From NCBI GenBank assembly GCA_030145485.1, contig JAQYVP010000246.1, positions 1-44,839 on the forward strand: 44,839 nucleotides of DNA, written 5' to 3'. Both the position numbers and the translations under genes were made by a program. A model generated the notes under the pieces. That model worked only from the letters and a program-made list of their open reading frames with translations, made no database searches and was not told where the DNA came from. Of this stretch, positions 31,949 to 44,839 are shown piece by piece. Every line of letters begins with the position of its first letter. The first letter of the stretch is position 1. The stretch is from Chromatiales bacterium. GTDB taxonomy: Bacteria > Pseudomonadota > Gammaproteobacteria > Chromatiales > Chromatiaceae.

Positions 31949-32023
31949 GATTTGATACCTTGCTGGTTTATGGAATAGGCGTTGTGACTTTGGGTGGAAG
32001 ATCATTGATGGGCGGAACACTTA

Positions 32024-32180
32024 GTCGTTGTCCAAAAATAACTTACCGATCCTGCTTGCCCTGTTGTCCCTCTTCTGCGTAGCAGCAAGAGTTACATAAC
32101 GCTGCTATGCGCCCCTTGCTGCGCCTTGAAGATGAACAACATTGCTGCGCGATATCGGGAAGTTATTTATGGACAACTCC
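32024..32180 (+). mobile_element. 157-bp palindromic MITE, copy 1
   Basis: Non-coding element with terminal inverted repeats of about 27 bp: left GTCGTTGTCCAAAAATAACT, right (complement) GGAGTTGTCCATAAATAACT. The interior is itself an imperfect palindrome, so the whole element can fold into one long hairpin. TTA at 32021-32023 and TTA at 32181-32183 flank it as a target-site duplication. Copies 2 and 3 are at 36924-37080 (inverted) and 44700 onward. No transposase gene is present in the window. Confidence 0.88.
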
Positions 32181-32212
32181 TTATTACATCCTACACTAAT
32201 ACTCGGGTATAC

Positions 32213-32235
32213 AAAAAGCCCGTGTATTGCACGGG
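32213..32235 (-). terminator. terminator-like hairpin pointing left
   Basis: On the minus strand CCCGTGCAATACACGGG is followed by CTTTTTGT, a good intrinsic terminator. No minus-strand gene ends here: genes to the right are on the plus strand. It may be left over from a lost gene or block antisense transcription. Confidence 0.45.
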
Positions 32236-32342
32236 TCCGTATAGGGTGCGTGTCCATAAGCTGTGTAGGACATTGCAATCTAATCGCACATGATGCAAGG
32301 TAGTCTTCATGATGCATCTCTTTGACTCTTCATTCAAACCTT

Positions 32343-33431
32343 ATGACTGACAAAATCATAGCAGCTTCTCTTTTGTGCGTACTCGCGACGATTTCTTCTC
32401 ATCATGCTCTCTTTGCAGGGGAAACACCACAAGGCCAATCCCAAATGCGAGTGGACAAGCATATGCGCAACGTCACCCAACTCACGGTCGAAGGAGACAA
32501 TGGCGAAGCCTATTTCAGTGCGGATGGAAAACACTTGATCTATCAGTCGAATCGCGGCGGATATGCCTGTGACAAGGTCTGGACGATGCGTATCGACGGG
32601 TCGCAAAAGCGCATGCTCAGTCCTGATCACGGCGCGCATACCTGCGCATTTTTCTATCCTGACAACAGCGCCGTGGTGTTTGCTTCCACCAGTCATCTCG
32701 AAGGTGATTGTCCACAGAAGCAGGTGTTCCCCGAGGGGATACGTTATGCATGGCCTCTCTACCCCTATGATATCTACAAGGCAAATGCCGATGGCAGCGG
32801 ACTCAAAAAACTGACGCAGAATCCCGGCTATGATGCCGAACCGATCATCTCTATGGATGGCCAAAAGATCGTCTTCGGCTCCCAGCGTGATAATGATTTC
32901 GATATCTACATGATGGATGCAGACGGTGACAATGTCGTACGTCTGACCCACACAGAGGGTTATGACGGCGGACCCTGGTTCTCTCCGGGCGGAAAGCAGA
33001 TCGTGTGGCGCGCCTGGCATCCGCAAACACAGGCGGAGAGGAAGCAGTGGCGCACCAACATGCGGGATAACTACATACAGTCTACGCCGCTGGATCTGTG
33101 GGTGATGGATGTCGACGGTTCCAATAAAAAGCGCCTGACTGATAATGGCGCGACCAACTGGGCGCCCTCGTGGCATCCGGACGGCAAGCGCATCATCTTC
33201 TCCAGCAACATGGACGACTGGCGCGAGGATATCAAGCGCTATGGCCACAACTTTGAACTCTACCTGATTAACAGCGACGGCAGTGGACTGGAGCGAATTA
33301 CCTTCAATGATGGCTTCGATAGCTTTCCGATGTTCTCCGCAGATGGAAAAAAACTGGTTTTCGGCGCCAACAGGAATCCGCAAAAGCCCCGGGCAACGGA
33401 TATCTTTATCGCGGATTGGGATGAGCAATGA
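32343..33431 (+). CDS. secreted TolB-like PD40 beta-propeller protein
   Basis: A 362-residue exported protein: a signal peptide (IIAASLLCVLATISSHHALF) and about six PD40 propeller repeats with recurrent FSADGKHLIYQSNR, MDGQKIVFGSQRDNDFDIYM, SPGGKQIVWR, PDGKRIIFSSN and FSADGKKLVFGANR. This resembles the TolB C-terminal propeller but lacks the TolB N-terminal domain. ATG at 32343 is preferred to an upstream TTG. Its stop overlaps the peptidase start (ATGA), so the pair is translationally coupled and may form a complex or share substrates. Confidence 0.85.
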   Translation: MTDKIIAASLLCVLATISSHHALFAGETPQGQSQMRVDKHMRNVTQLTVEGDNGEAYFSADGKHLIYQSNRGGYACDKVWTMRIDGSQKRMLSPDHGAHTCAFFYPDNSAVVFASTSHLEGDCPQKQVFPEGIRYAWPLYPYDIYKANADGSGLKKLTQNPGYDAEPIISMDGQKIVFGSQRDNDFDIYMMDADGDNVVRLTHTEGYDGGPWFSPGGKQIVWRAWHPQTQAERKQWRTNMRDNYIQSTPLDLWVMDVDGSNKKRLTDNGATNWAPSWHPDGKRIIFSSNMDDWREDIKRYGHNFELYLINSDGSGLERITFNDGFDSFPMFSADGKKLVFGANRNPQKPRATDIFIADWDEQ

Positions 33432-36400
33432 GGCGTGCTCTTACCCAACTGCTGTTTCTCGCTGTGTTGCTGTTCCCCGTCGTTGCGGCGGCGTCGCAGA
33501 AAACTATCCACCATGCGTTGACAATCGAGCTCTTTCCAGATCGTCAGCGTCTTCATGTGCGAGACGAAATTACGCTTGGCGCCGGATCTCCCCGGCAACT
33601 GACCTTTGCACTGCACCCAGGTCTCAAACCCCGCTCGCTGACGCAAGGTGCTGTCATTGAGCCTATCGGTACAGCCAATAATGTGCTTCAACAGCAGTTC
33701 AGGCTGCAGCTCGCTGAAGGAGTGGATGCTTTTATGATGGAGTACGAGGGAGTCATCCATTATCCATTGGAAGCCTATGGCAGGGAGCAGGCGCGTAGTT
33801 TCAGGAGCAGTCCCGGGCTGATCGATTCCGAGGGCGTCTTTCTGGCGGGCGGCACATTCTGGTATGCGCAATTTGATATTGACGATCGCATGACTTTCAA
33901 ACTGGAGGTCACCCTGCCCGCAGAATGGAGCAGCGTCAGCCAGGGTCAGCGGGTTCGCCATGACCGGGGAGAACAGAGCGCAACTGACACATGGGCCTCG
34001 AACACCCCGCAGGAGGAAATCTACCTGGTCGCGGCGCCATTTGTCGAGTACAGCCGCGACAGTGGTGAAGTTATTGCCCAGGTATTCCTGCGCCAGCAGG
34101 ATGAGAAACTTGCCAACGACTACCTGGATGCAACCGAGCGTTACCTCGGCATGTATGAGCAACTGCTGGGCCCTTATCCCTACAGCAAGTTCGCCCTGGT
34201 AGAGAACTTCTGGGAAACCGGTTTCGGCATGCCCTCCTTCACACTGCTTGGATCGAAGGTGATCCGTCTGCCATTCATTCTGAACTCCTCCTATCCCCAC
34301 GAAATTCTGCACAATTGGTGGGGCAACGGCGTCTATGTGGATTTCTCAGGCGGCAACTGGAGCGAGGGGCTGACTGCCTATCTGGCGGATCACCTGATCA
34401 AGCAGCAGCAGGGAAGAGGGGTGAGCTATCGCCAGCAGAGCTTGCAGAAATATACCGACTATGCTGCAGAGGAGCGTGATTTCCCGCTCAACGAGTTTCT
34501 CGGCCGCCACAGCTCTGCTTCCGAGGCGGTCGGCTACGGCAAGACATTGATGCTGTTTCACATGCTGCGGCGGCAGCTTGGCGATCAGGCCTTCATCGAA
34601 GGGCTGCAGCAGTTTTACCGCAAGTGGCAGTTTCAGAAAGCCTCCTTTGACGATCTGCAAGCCAGTGTCGAGAAGGTTTCTGGTCAGTCGCTAGGCGCTT
34701 TTTTTGAGCAGTGGGTGGATCGAAGCGGTGCACCGGCACTGAAACTGACAAACAGTGAGGTTAGCAAAAGAGGTGATCTGTACCATCTTACATTCCAGCT
34801 GTCTCAGACCCAGCCCGGCAAGGCTTACCAGTTGCAGGTTCCGCTGGCCATTACTCTGGAAGGAGAAAAGCAGGCTCACCAGAGCATCGTTGAGATGACA
34901 CAGAAGCAGCAGCAGTTTGAGATCACGCTTTCCGCGCGGCCTCTGCGTATCGATATCGATCCTGAATTTGATCTTTTCCGCAAGCTGGCGCTGGAGGAGA
35001 CGCCGCCGGCTTTTACGCAACTGTTTGGCAGCAACAGTATGCTGGTGGTGTTGCCGGGCGCAGCCGCGCCTGTCATGAAAAAGGCATGGCGACGCTTTGC
35101 CGAGGATCTTGCCAGGATGGGACCGGAGAGCGTGACGCTCGCCTGGGACGATGAACTGGAGACTCTGCCGGAGGAGCGGGCGATCGTTGTGCTGGGTTGG
35201 GAAAACCGCCATACTGAGATGGTTGCCACCGCGCTGTCTGTCAATGGTGTGCAGTTCAAAGCGGACAGCCTCACCATCGGGAAGACGAGTATCCCCCGCA
35301 GCGGGCATGCGCTGGCTTTGGTGACGCGGCATCAGCAGGGCGGACAGCACTCGCGTGCTTTTATTGCCGCCGACCTGCCCGAATCACTGCCCGGTCTCGG
35401 CCGCAAGCTGCCTCATTACCACAAATACAGCTACCTGGCATTTTCCGGTGGAGAGCCGGAAATTCAGCTCAAAGGCCGCTGGCAGGTGGAGCGTTCTCCC
35501 CTGACGGCGGTGTTTGTAGAGAACACCGAACCTGGTCAGTTGGCAAGGCGAGAGGCGCTCATTGATCCCCCGCATGAATTCGATAGCAAACGTATGCTGG
35601 AGACTGTCCACTTTCTTAGCGGTGGTGCTTTGCAGGGGCGAGGCTTTGGTGAGCCGGGCCTGGATCAGGCTGCAGAATATATCTCCAGGGCATTTCGCGA
35701 GGCGGGGCTGCAGCCGGCGGGAGATCTTCCCGGCAGTTACTTTCAGAGTTGGGATGAGAAGGGCGGCCAACCGGAGCGTAGAAGCCAGCTGAAAAATGTC
35801 GTCGCGGTCATCCCCTCCGCCGAGCCGGAACGCCGTCATGAAAGCATTGTGATCGGCGCACACTATGACCATCTCGGCCGCGGCTGGCCCGATGTTCGGG
35901 ACGGCAACCGGGGCGAGATTCATCCTGGCGCTGACGACAACGCCAGCGGCGTCGCGGTGCTGCTGGAGTTGGCGCGAGTTCTTGGCAAGGATTTCAAGCC
36001 AGACCGCAACATCGTACTTGCGGCTTTCAGCGGCGAAGAGGCGGGCCGCAGGGGCTCGAAACACTACATCGAACGACTCAAGGAAAATCCGGCGGACAAC
36101 ATCTTCGCCATGATCAATCTGGATACGGTGGGTCGCCTGGGCGGCAACAAGCTGCTGGTGCTGGGCGCGAATTCAGCGAGTGAGTGGCCGCATATCTTCA
36201 GGGGCATCGGTTATGTCACCGGCATTCCTATCGCCATGGTTGCCGAACAACTCGACTCCAGCGACCAGGTCAGCTTTCACGAGGCCGGGATTCCTGCGGT
36301 GCAGCTCTTTTCCGGGGTGAATCCGGACTACCACCGTGCCACTGATACAGTGGAAAAAATCGATGCCGAAGGTATGGTGAAAGTCGCCACGGTGACCAAA

Positions 36401-36820
36401 GAGGCGGTGGAGTATCTGGCAGGCAGTGAAGAGCCGATGACAGCCACACTGCCTGACATCTCAATCAGCAATCAGCAATCCGGCAAACAGCGCAAAGTGA
36501 CTCTGGGCACTGTTCCCGATTTCAGCTACCAGGGCGAAGGCTATCGACTGCATGGCGTCACATCCGGTTCACCCGCGATGGCTGCGGGATTGATACAGGG
36601 AGATGTCATTATTCAATTGAATGACACAGCTGTGTATGGCCTCAGAAATCTCTCCAATATCCTGAAAACGCTGCAGCCGGGTGAGATCGTCACGATTCAC
36701 TACCGGCGTCAGGGGGAGATCGTGACAACGCAGGTCACTCTCAGAGCAAAAAACGCGCAGTCAACCCGGAAACAGGAGAGCGCTGGGGAAAACCGGAAGT
36801 CGGGGCTACCATCTCCCTGA
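33428..36820 (+). CDS. double metallopeptidase: M1-like, M28 and PDZ domains
   Basis: A 1130-residue exported protein with a signal peptide (LLFLAVLLFPVVAAAS). Residues 25-480 are an M1-type peptidase unit with zinc motif HEILH (291-295) and NWSEGLTAY carrying the third ligand (E313); the GAMEN exopeptidase motif of classic M1 aminopeptidases is replaced by ENFWETGFGMPS. Residues 480-720 are a mixed linker region. About 740-990 is an M28 domain with AHYDHLG, GADDNASG, FSGEEAGRRG, NLDTVG and HEAGIPAVQLF, all five zinc ligands. A PDZ domain (about 1015-1110) follows. The final residues may be read-out into a remnant of another gene. Confidence 0.87.
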   Translation: MRRALTQLLFLAVLLFPVVAAASQKTIHHALTIELFPDRQRLHVRDEITLGAGSPRQLTFALHPGLKPRSLTQGAVIEPIGTANNVLQQQFRLQLAEGVDAFMMEYEGVIHYPLEAYGREQARSFRSSPGLIDSEGVFLAGGTFWYAQFDIDDRMTFKLEVTLPAEWSSVSQGQRVRHDRGEQSATDTWASNTPQEEIYLVAAPFVEYSRDSGEVIAQVFLRQQDEKLANDYLDATERYLGMYEQLLGPYPYSKFALVENFWETGFGMPSFTLLGSKVIRLPFILNSSYPHEILHNWWGNGVYVDFSGGNWSEGLTAYLADHLIKQQQGRGVSYRQQSLQKYTDYAAEERDFPLNEFLGRHSSASEAVGYGKTLMLFHMLRRQLGDQAFIEGLQQFYRKWQFQKASFDDLQASVEKVSGQSLGAFFEQWVDRSGAPALKLTNSEVSKRGDLYHLTFQLSQTQPGKAYQLQVPLAITLEGEKQAHQSIVEMTQKQQQFEITLSARPLRIDIDPEFDLFRKLALEETPPAFTQLFGSNSMLVVLPGAAAPVMKKAWRRFAEDLARMGPESVTLAWDDELETLPEERAIVVLGWENRHTEMVATALSVNGVQFKADSLTIGKTSIPRSGHALALVTRHQQGGQHSRAFIAADLPESLPGLGRKLPHYHKYSYLAFSGGEPEIQLKGRWQVERSPLTAVFVENTEPGQLARREALIDPPHEFDSKRMLETVHFLSGGALQGRGFGEPGLDQAAEYISRAFREAGLQPAGDLPGSYFQSWDEKGGQPERRSQLKNVVAVIPSAEPERRHESIVIGAHYDHLGRGWPDVRDGNRGEIHPGADDNASGVAVLLELARVLGKDFKPDRNIVLAAFSGEEAGRRGSKHYIERLKENPADNIFAMINLDTVGRLGGNKLLVLGANSASEWPHIFRGIGYVTGIPIAMVAEQLDSSDQVSFHEAGIPAVQLFSGVNPDYHRATDTVEKIDAEGMVKVATVTKEAVEYLAGSEEPMTATLPDISISNQQSGKQRKVTLGTVPDFSYQGEGYRLHGVTSGSPAMAAGLIQGDVIIQLNDTAVYGLRNLSNILKTLQPGEIVTIHYRRQGEIVTTQVTLRAKNAQSTRKQESAGENRKSGLPSP

Positions 36821-36921
36821 AAGAGCTGCAAACCGGGCCAGCCCTGGATGACAAACGCATCAACGCACTTGTCGCTTTTCTATAGATGCTCACCGACAAG
36901 CGTTATGAGCACATAATTCCT
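36760..36921 (+). pseudogene. 3' remnant of a di-haem cytochrome c peroxidase/MauG-like gene
   Basis: In a frame different from the M28 gene, the bases encode NPETGERWGKPEVGATISL, ALDDKRINALVAFL, an in-frame TAG (36883-36885), then MLTDKRYEH. LVAFLxxLTDKRYEH is a common C-terminal ending of MauG/cytochrome c peroxidase-like proteins. The remnant has a stop codon inside, no haem motif survives, and MITE copy 2 is inserted at its end. Its first bases overlap the end of the peptidase gene. Confidence 0.55.
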
Positions 36922-36923
36922 TA

Positions 36924-37080
36924 GGAGTTGTCTAGAAATAACTTACCGATATCGCGCAGCAATGTTGTTCATCTTCAAGGCGCAGCAAGGGGCGCATAGC
37001 AGCGTTATGTAACTCTTGCTGGAACGCCGAAGACGGACAACAGGGCAAGCAGGATCGGGAAGTTATTTTTAGACAACGAC
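36924..37080 (-). mobile_element. 157-bp palindromic MITE, copy 2
   Basis: Same element as 32024-32180 in the opposite orientation and of identical length: left end GGAGTTGTCTAGAAATAACT, right end GTTATTTTTAGACAACGAC. TTA at 36921-36923 and TTA at 37081-37083 are the target-site duplication. It is inserted just after the peroxidase remnant. Confidence 0.88.
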
Positions 37081-37129
37081 TTAGTTGTCCGGGAACAGGC
37101 GCCGAGATTACGCTCTTTGTTTGGGGTTC

Positions 37130-37537
37130 TCATTTTTTTGTGGGCTGTGAAGTACAGGGATATGCATTTTGCAGCGCATCGAGAGTAACCATCGCAGCAG
37201 ATTTATCCAGGTCGACGCTCTTGCGACCGGCATATCGCATGAACGCTTCTGCAAATTGCCGCGATGATGTGTTATCAGGCGCACAAACCACGAAAGCCCG
37301 GGTAGATGAAGCCTTTCGCTGAAACAGGCGTATGGCTTCTTCGACGCCACTGACAAAGCCGTGACAATAGCGCTTGCGTTGCCGCCCGGTTCTTGTCAAC
37401 GAGCTGGATGCACACGCCTGCAGAAGTTCCCTGGCTGTCATCTGTTGAGGGAAGTACCCTTCTGAAATGTCATCTTCGGCTTGCGTTGACAACGGCAGCA
37501 GCACTAACAAAACAGTCAAGATAAAGCTTCGGTTCAT
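37130..37537 (-). CDS. Rap1a/Tai-like secreted protein
   Basis: A 135-residue protein with a signal peptide (FILTVLLVLLPLSTQA) and the pattern of the Rap1a/Tai family: four cysteines in the arrangement LLQACASS, RYCHGFVSGVEEA, VVCAPD and YPC, with helices between. Family members with known function are periplasmic immunity proteins against type VI secretion amidase effectors, but many homologues are orphans. No effector gene is adjacent, so the immunity role is uncertain. GGAG-like bases precede the ATG. Confidence 0.65.
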   Translation of the reverse strand: MNRSFILTVLLVLLPLSTQAEDDISEGYFPQQMTARELLQACASSSLTRTGRQRKRYCHGFVSGVEEAIRLFQRKASSTRAFVVCAPDNTSSRQFAEAFMRYAGRKSVDLDKSAAMVTLDALQNAYPCTSQPTKK

Positions 37538-44668: not shown

Positions 44669-44699
44669 GATTAGTGAGGCCAAGTCTCAGACTGACTAA

Positions 44700-44839
44700 G
44701 TCGTTGTCCAAAAATAACTTCCCGATCCTGCTTGCCCTGTTGTCCGTCTTCTGCGTTCCAGCAAGAGTTTCATAACGCTGCTATGCGCCCCTTGCTGCGT
44801 CTTGAATACGAACAACATTGCTGCGCGATATCGGTAAGT
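44700..44839 (+). mobile_element. 157-bp palindromic MITE, copy 3 (cut by window end)
   Basis: Begins GTCGTTGTCCAAAAATAACT like copy 1 and runs to the last base of the window, stopping inside the right terminal repeat (ATCGGTAAGT). The base triplet before it is TAA, within CTAA. It lies 31 bases upstream of the greB start on the opposite side. Confidence 0.85.

Follow-up and report, generated by a model that had tools for sequence, protein, structure and literature searches.

The definition of a MITE usually rests on its ends, and the interior is taken as decayed filler. Among the palindromic intergenic repeats of bacteria, ERIC, Correia, and RUP are MITE-like. The IS1031 and IS427 groups of the IS5 family make 3-bp TNA duplications, and TTA/TNA is also duplicated by the Tourist MITEs of plants, which are mobilised by PIF/Harbinger. 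An assay has been published for mPing (PMC2836001), and the MITEs of prokaryotes have been reviewed (PMC10969869). In Pseudomonas syringae, MITEPsy1 has been attributed to ISPsy2 of the IS5 family; it has IS5-type ends and a short target duplication, and its mobility in trans has been proven (PMC3189936). In the elements described here, in contrast to the usual view of MITEs, the interior is conserved and structured.

Two complete copies are found in a stretch of 44,839 nucleotides (the window), contig JAQYVP010000246.1 of the Chromatiales bacterium assembly GCA_030145485.1. Copy 1 lies at 32024-32180 on the plus strand, with its GTC end first, and copy 2 at 36924-37080 on the minus strand. 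Both are 157 bp long, and TTA triplets border them on all four sides (32021-32023, 32181-32183, 36921-36923, and 37081-37083). The preliminary description had these coordinates, lengths, triplets, and the opposite orientation exactly right, and what it called near-identical copies display 94% identity by BLAST. The inverted ends comprise about 24 bp per copy, and the 24-nt ends of copy 1 are 92% complementary. The two ends of a copy differ slightly (GTCGTTGTC.../GGAGTTGTC...), so that bases 2-3 do not match in the inverted repeat. The imperfect palindrome seen earlier along the full length is real, as the RNA fold of copy 2 has a z-score of -11.7 and none of 200 shuffled sequences folds as well. 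A third copy on the plus strand, with a TAA triplet on its left flank (44697-44699), is represented by its first 140 bp only (44700-44839), where the contig ends. None of the window ORFs of at least 90 aa is confined to the MITE. Positions 33428-36820 encode a protein of 1130 aa with a peptidase M1 domain, a peptidase M28 domain, and a C-terminal PDZ domain, while a gene with a Rap1a immunity-protein domain (37130-37537, minus strand) adjoins copy 2. The region matching the latter gene in the congener G001 has been rearranged and is considerably shorter.

As the preliminary description had proposed, the 157-bp sequence was searched for in the whole genome and in relatives. The own genome, that of a marine-sediment bacterium (3.02 Mb in 260 contigs), contains at least 40 matches (40 of 96 candidates were scored) that cover most or all of the element with 91-100% identity. 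The end motif, when up to three mismatches are allowed, matches 103 times, compared to zero times for a reversed control pattern, and the genome thus holds about 50 copies. More copies are found in four congeners (G001, G002, G003, and G005). Other named contigs with the end motif belong mostly to MAGs of marine-sediment Gammaproteobacteria (CSMAG, Sva-25); a match in one viral contig was judged to be due to chance, and the plasmids searched contain no DNA similar to the MITE. The length is nearly uniform, being 157 bp in 45 and 158 bp in seven of the 52 distinct copies of the genus. The same triplet is found on both flanks in 46 of them (27 TTA, 18 TAA, and one TGA), and the duplication is therefore TNA, in a site context that leans towards C-TNA-G. 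The own genome also contains an element of about 209 bp (L068:2100-2320 on contig C190) with the same terminal repeats and another interior that carries GGGACT tandem repeats.

A covariance model, R1, was made of the 108-bp interior of the MITE. It matches all three copies in the window, at 32049-32156 (copy 1, plus, 118.8 bits), 36948-37055 (copy 2, minus, 117.7 bits), and 44725-44832 (copy 3, 114.9 bits). When 370 genomes of Gammaproteobacteria were searched with R1, 37 were positive, and in 15 of the 370, spanning 12 families, the best match reached at least 60 bits. As a control for generic palindromes, true elements were also scored on their opposite strand, with a maximum of 28 bits. Matches below about 45 bits have visible motifs in common with the core, but are unproven and may partly be generic palindromes. 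In the genera of the same family represented by G029 and G024, MITE queries matched the interior only; the ends differ, and the TNA duplication is kept. The reverse is seen in a MAG of the Desulfobulbaceae, where a MITE (L116:397-572), palindromic and about 174 bp long, has nearly the same ends (GGGGTTGTCCAAAAATAACTTACCGAT), a TTA duplication, and an unrelated interior on which R1 is silent. In a MAG of the Planctomycetaceae, an element of about 575 bp (L140:4882-5457) has GGAGTTGTCTGGAAATAACTTCCCGAT at one end in a TAA/TTA context and no transposase-sized ORF. The literature that was searched, short of subscription papers and ISfinder, describes no core common to MITEs with different ends, and relative to this literature such a core is provisionally regarded as new.

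Class-wide, elements that carry the core are 155-163 bp long. Elements of 155-161 bp with TNA duplications could be reconstructed from ten genomes (G024, G029, G120, G280, G282, G379, G400, G414, G415, and G567), and their ends include GGGCTTGTCAATAAATAACTTGATC, GGAACGTTCACGAAATAACTTCTGC, GGGATGTGGAAGAAGTTAAAGTACC, and GGCGATTTCTGGAATATAACATACC. The ends of the G442 element are TACTTCGCGCGGCCACATTTTCGG. It lies between two TA dinucleotides, and so do the core elements of G246 and G548. Elements of G449, whose core matches are weak, have CTAG at both start and end, which apparently is a third type of target duplication. Compared to the element of the own genome, that of G442 displays 65% identity in the core (z 10.6 over shuffled sequences) and 33% in the ends (z -0.3). 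Even within one genome the two parts have diverged differently, since subfamilies A and B of G029 are 90% identical in their cores and 62% in their ends. A palindromic insert of about 46 nt (CCTACANGGATGTAGGTNNGGGGCGTNAGCAGGA...GCGGAAGC) occurs inside unrelated repeats of the own genome (L014:1692-1725, L011, L017, and L019), at two further loci (L141 and L168), and in 205-bp forms of the core element in G442, which belongs to another family (L278:361-394 and L279:334-367). This insert appears to be a separate mobile hairpin of very small size.

The core forms a hairpin. Covariation was analysed in 15 cores from different genomes or subfamilies, which could be aligned almost without gaps and are not phylogenetically independent. 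In this set 28 of the 37 core pairs have changed on both sides with pairing preserved, and 93.2% of the cells in the alignment are paired, compared to 77.6% in shuffled alignments. The covariation score is 0.527 vs. 0.235 for shuffled alignments, of which none among 500 scored as high, while slid controls all gave 0.143 or less. The helix is interrupted by three two-base mismatches, in all of which GC faces AA across the two arms, and which are kept in 13-15 of 16 sequences. Palindrome-templated repair of palindromic DNA can in part account for the covariation, but such repair would erase the GC/AA mismatches and is therefore not the whole cause of the pairing. Strand B, which has GC on the 5' arm and lies on the minus strand in copy 1, folds better as RNA than its complement in 14 of 15 families, and the same holds for 51 of the 52 genus copies. 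Its helix contains 43 G-U cells vs. ten A-C cells. These figures are only suggestive of selection on one single strand, be it RNA or ssDNA, given the relatedness of the sequences and the fact that 19 of the 43 G-U cells come from just two pairs.

Within the genus the picture is different. Substitution rates among the copies are much alike in stems (0.047), ends (0.042), and loops (0.055), with 0.028 in the mismatch motifs, and a change in a stem is about as likely to break a pair as to preserve it (77 vs. 70). Single copies are thus free to decay, and constraint is apparent between lineages only, as would be expected if the core serves the propagation of the element itself.

The explanation we favour, with a probability of about 0.72, is that the repeat is an orphan MITE that is moved in trans, and that it carries a conserved hairpin core which acts as a single strand and has received new ends, allowing different transposases to carry it. 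A DDE transposase of an IS5-like kind, recognising only the terminal 24 bp or so, would cut and paste the MITE in trans into TNA. The core would be a module kept by selection on the mobile lineage. We infer that its hairpin works single-stranded, as ssDNA or RNA, and the three GC/AA mismatch motifs may bind a host or transposition factor. The hairpin might then help the element, for instance by binding a host protein or, at constant length, by giving the synaptic complex its shape. Replacement of the ends over time could be due to adjacent MITEs recombining, or to ends that gradually followed new transposases. A more far-reaching version, where the core is an autonomous evolutionary unit that has travelled with at least two to three transposase systems unrelated to each other (with TNA, TA, and apparently CTAG duplications), swapping ends while keeping about 157 bp, is put forward tentatively, at slightly less than even odds.

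The strongest competitor to an orphan MITE with a functional core is an ordinary IS5-derived MITE, where the ends track a changing transposase and the interior is old debris that has no function and persists through descent alone. The ends do form a partial continuum, GGNNNTGTNNNNAAATAA being found in many families, and the genus copies are, as mentioned above, free of constraint after insertion. Furthermore, three 59-bp elements in G280 (L269, L270, and L271) consist of ends only; they have one internal deletion in common, lie at different sites, and are flanked by TTA/TAA. They seem to be mobile without the core, and the core is thus not strictly required in that genome. However, neutral debris would hardly maintain 93% pairing, two-sided change in 28 of 37 pairs, and three mismatch motifs. 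The core is also better conserved than the ends, which is the reverse of what debris should display, and the ends of the TA-duplicating relatives are unrelated. Debris is therefore considered unlikely.

It is still less probable that the core is an RNA element useful to the host, involved in mRNA processing or stability, or acting as an sRNA or a terminator, and supplied by copies situated in transcripts. The strand-specific folding and the excess of G-U pairs would fit such a role, as would the location of the copies, 47 of the 52 being clear of long ORFs and thus mostly intergenic, and there are precedents such as the QMITE-derived sRNAs of Coxiella (PMC5896051). However, the genus copies display no orientation bias relative to neighbouring tandem genes (7 vs. 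13), which weakens a role in host transcripts, and the ease with which single copies lose their pairing is not what a host function predicts. Rfam 15 has no family matching the core at gathering score; the only matches, far below it, are of the miRNA type, as expected of palindromes. The integron attC and XerCD dif attachment sites were also considered, and were dropped on inspection as the arms of the core vary by compensatory change and their sequence is not kept.

An IS that supplies the transposase would have the ends GGAGTTGTCCATAAATAACTTCCCGAT and a TNA duplication. An IS5-family transposase, as suggested in the preliminary description, is made plausible by this duplication, but the four DDE_Tnp_1 genes found in the own genome are all without flanking MITE ends. 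DDE_Tnp_4 has no match in the genus. In 17 other genomes with the core, the matches to the IS5 model NF033580 had either different ends or no definable ones. G442, whose genome is complete, has 39 terminal motifs, which form pairs only at about 159 or 205 bp and none at the distance of an IS. Likewise, when end patterns were searched for in 210 genomes of the order and in G442 and G280, the only matches were solo ends and pairs of MITE size. The solo ends in the own genome were rejected as parts of a full IS, being fragments, copies at contig ends, or the 209-bp variant. The full IS with the same terminal repeats that the preliminary description told one to look for was thus not found in the searched, fragmented assemblies. 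The TNA duplication being the only ground for an IS5-like assignment, membership of the IS5 family is not claimed.

The 157-bp repeat is a true MITE that transposes: it is short and non-coding, has terminal inverted repeats and a target duplication, and related empty sites have been found. When the flanks of the L028 copy are joined, they are 94% identical over 165 bp to the uninterrupted repeats L007 and L037, which have a single TTA at this point. The copies in L014, L022, and L112 are nested in other repeats in the same manner, with uninterrupted paralogs (L017, L071, and L063) that carry a single triplet. The search for empty sites proposed earlier thus succeeded for paralogous repeats; for the copies in the window, the flanks are rearranged in congener G001, which offers no clean orthologous empty allele. 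The preliminary description further compared the two copies to the ends of a composite element, which as a composite transposon would move the intervening PD40 and peptidase genes. All the inner and outer triplets are TTA, and are in this respect compatible with an outer duplication. However, the two copies are flanked by TTA separately, also at both inner junctions, as expected of two single insertions, and about 50 other MITE copies are solo. The PD40-peptidase block moreover adjoins the same transporter gene in G001, where the order transporter-PD40-peptidase is kept without either MITE, and the composite reading is consequently very improbable. That the copies owe their spread to recombination or gene conversion is less credible still. 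One mosaic copy (L008) has the left flank of L004 and unequal triplets, which would fit this route, but the many dispersed copies have uniform length, exact ends, TNA duplications, and unrelated flanks, and the related empty sites make this route false for most copies and exclude it as the main one, in agreement with the earlier preference for transposition.

If the favoured reading is true, the hairpin in non-autonomous elements is functional and such elements can switch carrier, which would give a testable handle on why some MITEs reach high copy numbers with no visible partner transposase. Should the core also be an autonomous unit, these elements would form a modular non-autonomous class where the cargo hairpin is conserved, and not the termini. 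R1 can be used as a class-wide annotation marker, while tools based on ends would split such elements into unrelated families.

Compared to known systems, the MITE is similar to the IS5 family (IS1031 and IS427 groups) in its 3-bp TNA duplications, but no member with these ends was found here. MITEPsy1 and MITEPsy2 are likewise small gammaproteobacterial MITEs. However, they are 100 and 228 bp long, respectively, and their ends differ from those of the present MITE, while MITEPsy1 duplicates 4 bp (CTAG/YTAA); a class-wide core common to elements with different ends is not described for them (PMC3189936). The GTAG/CGTC-tagged REPs also combine conserved short tags with palindromic stems, but are only 20-40 bp and are without terminal inverted repeats of about 24 bp or TNA duplications (PMC3733652). 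Tourist MITEs are eukaryotic, and the DDE_Tnp_4 match is absent from the present genus; they nevertheless resemble the present MITE in the TTA duplication and in a site context similar to C-TTA-G. An ERIC locus of E. coli gives no match to the R1 core, but ERIC, Correia, and RUP have a TA duplication, as do the relatives of the present MITE in G442 and G246.
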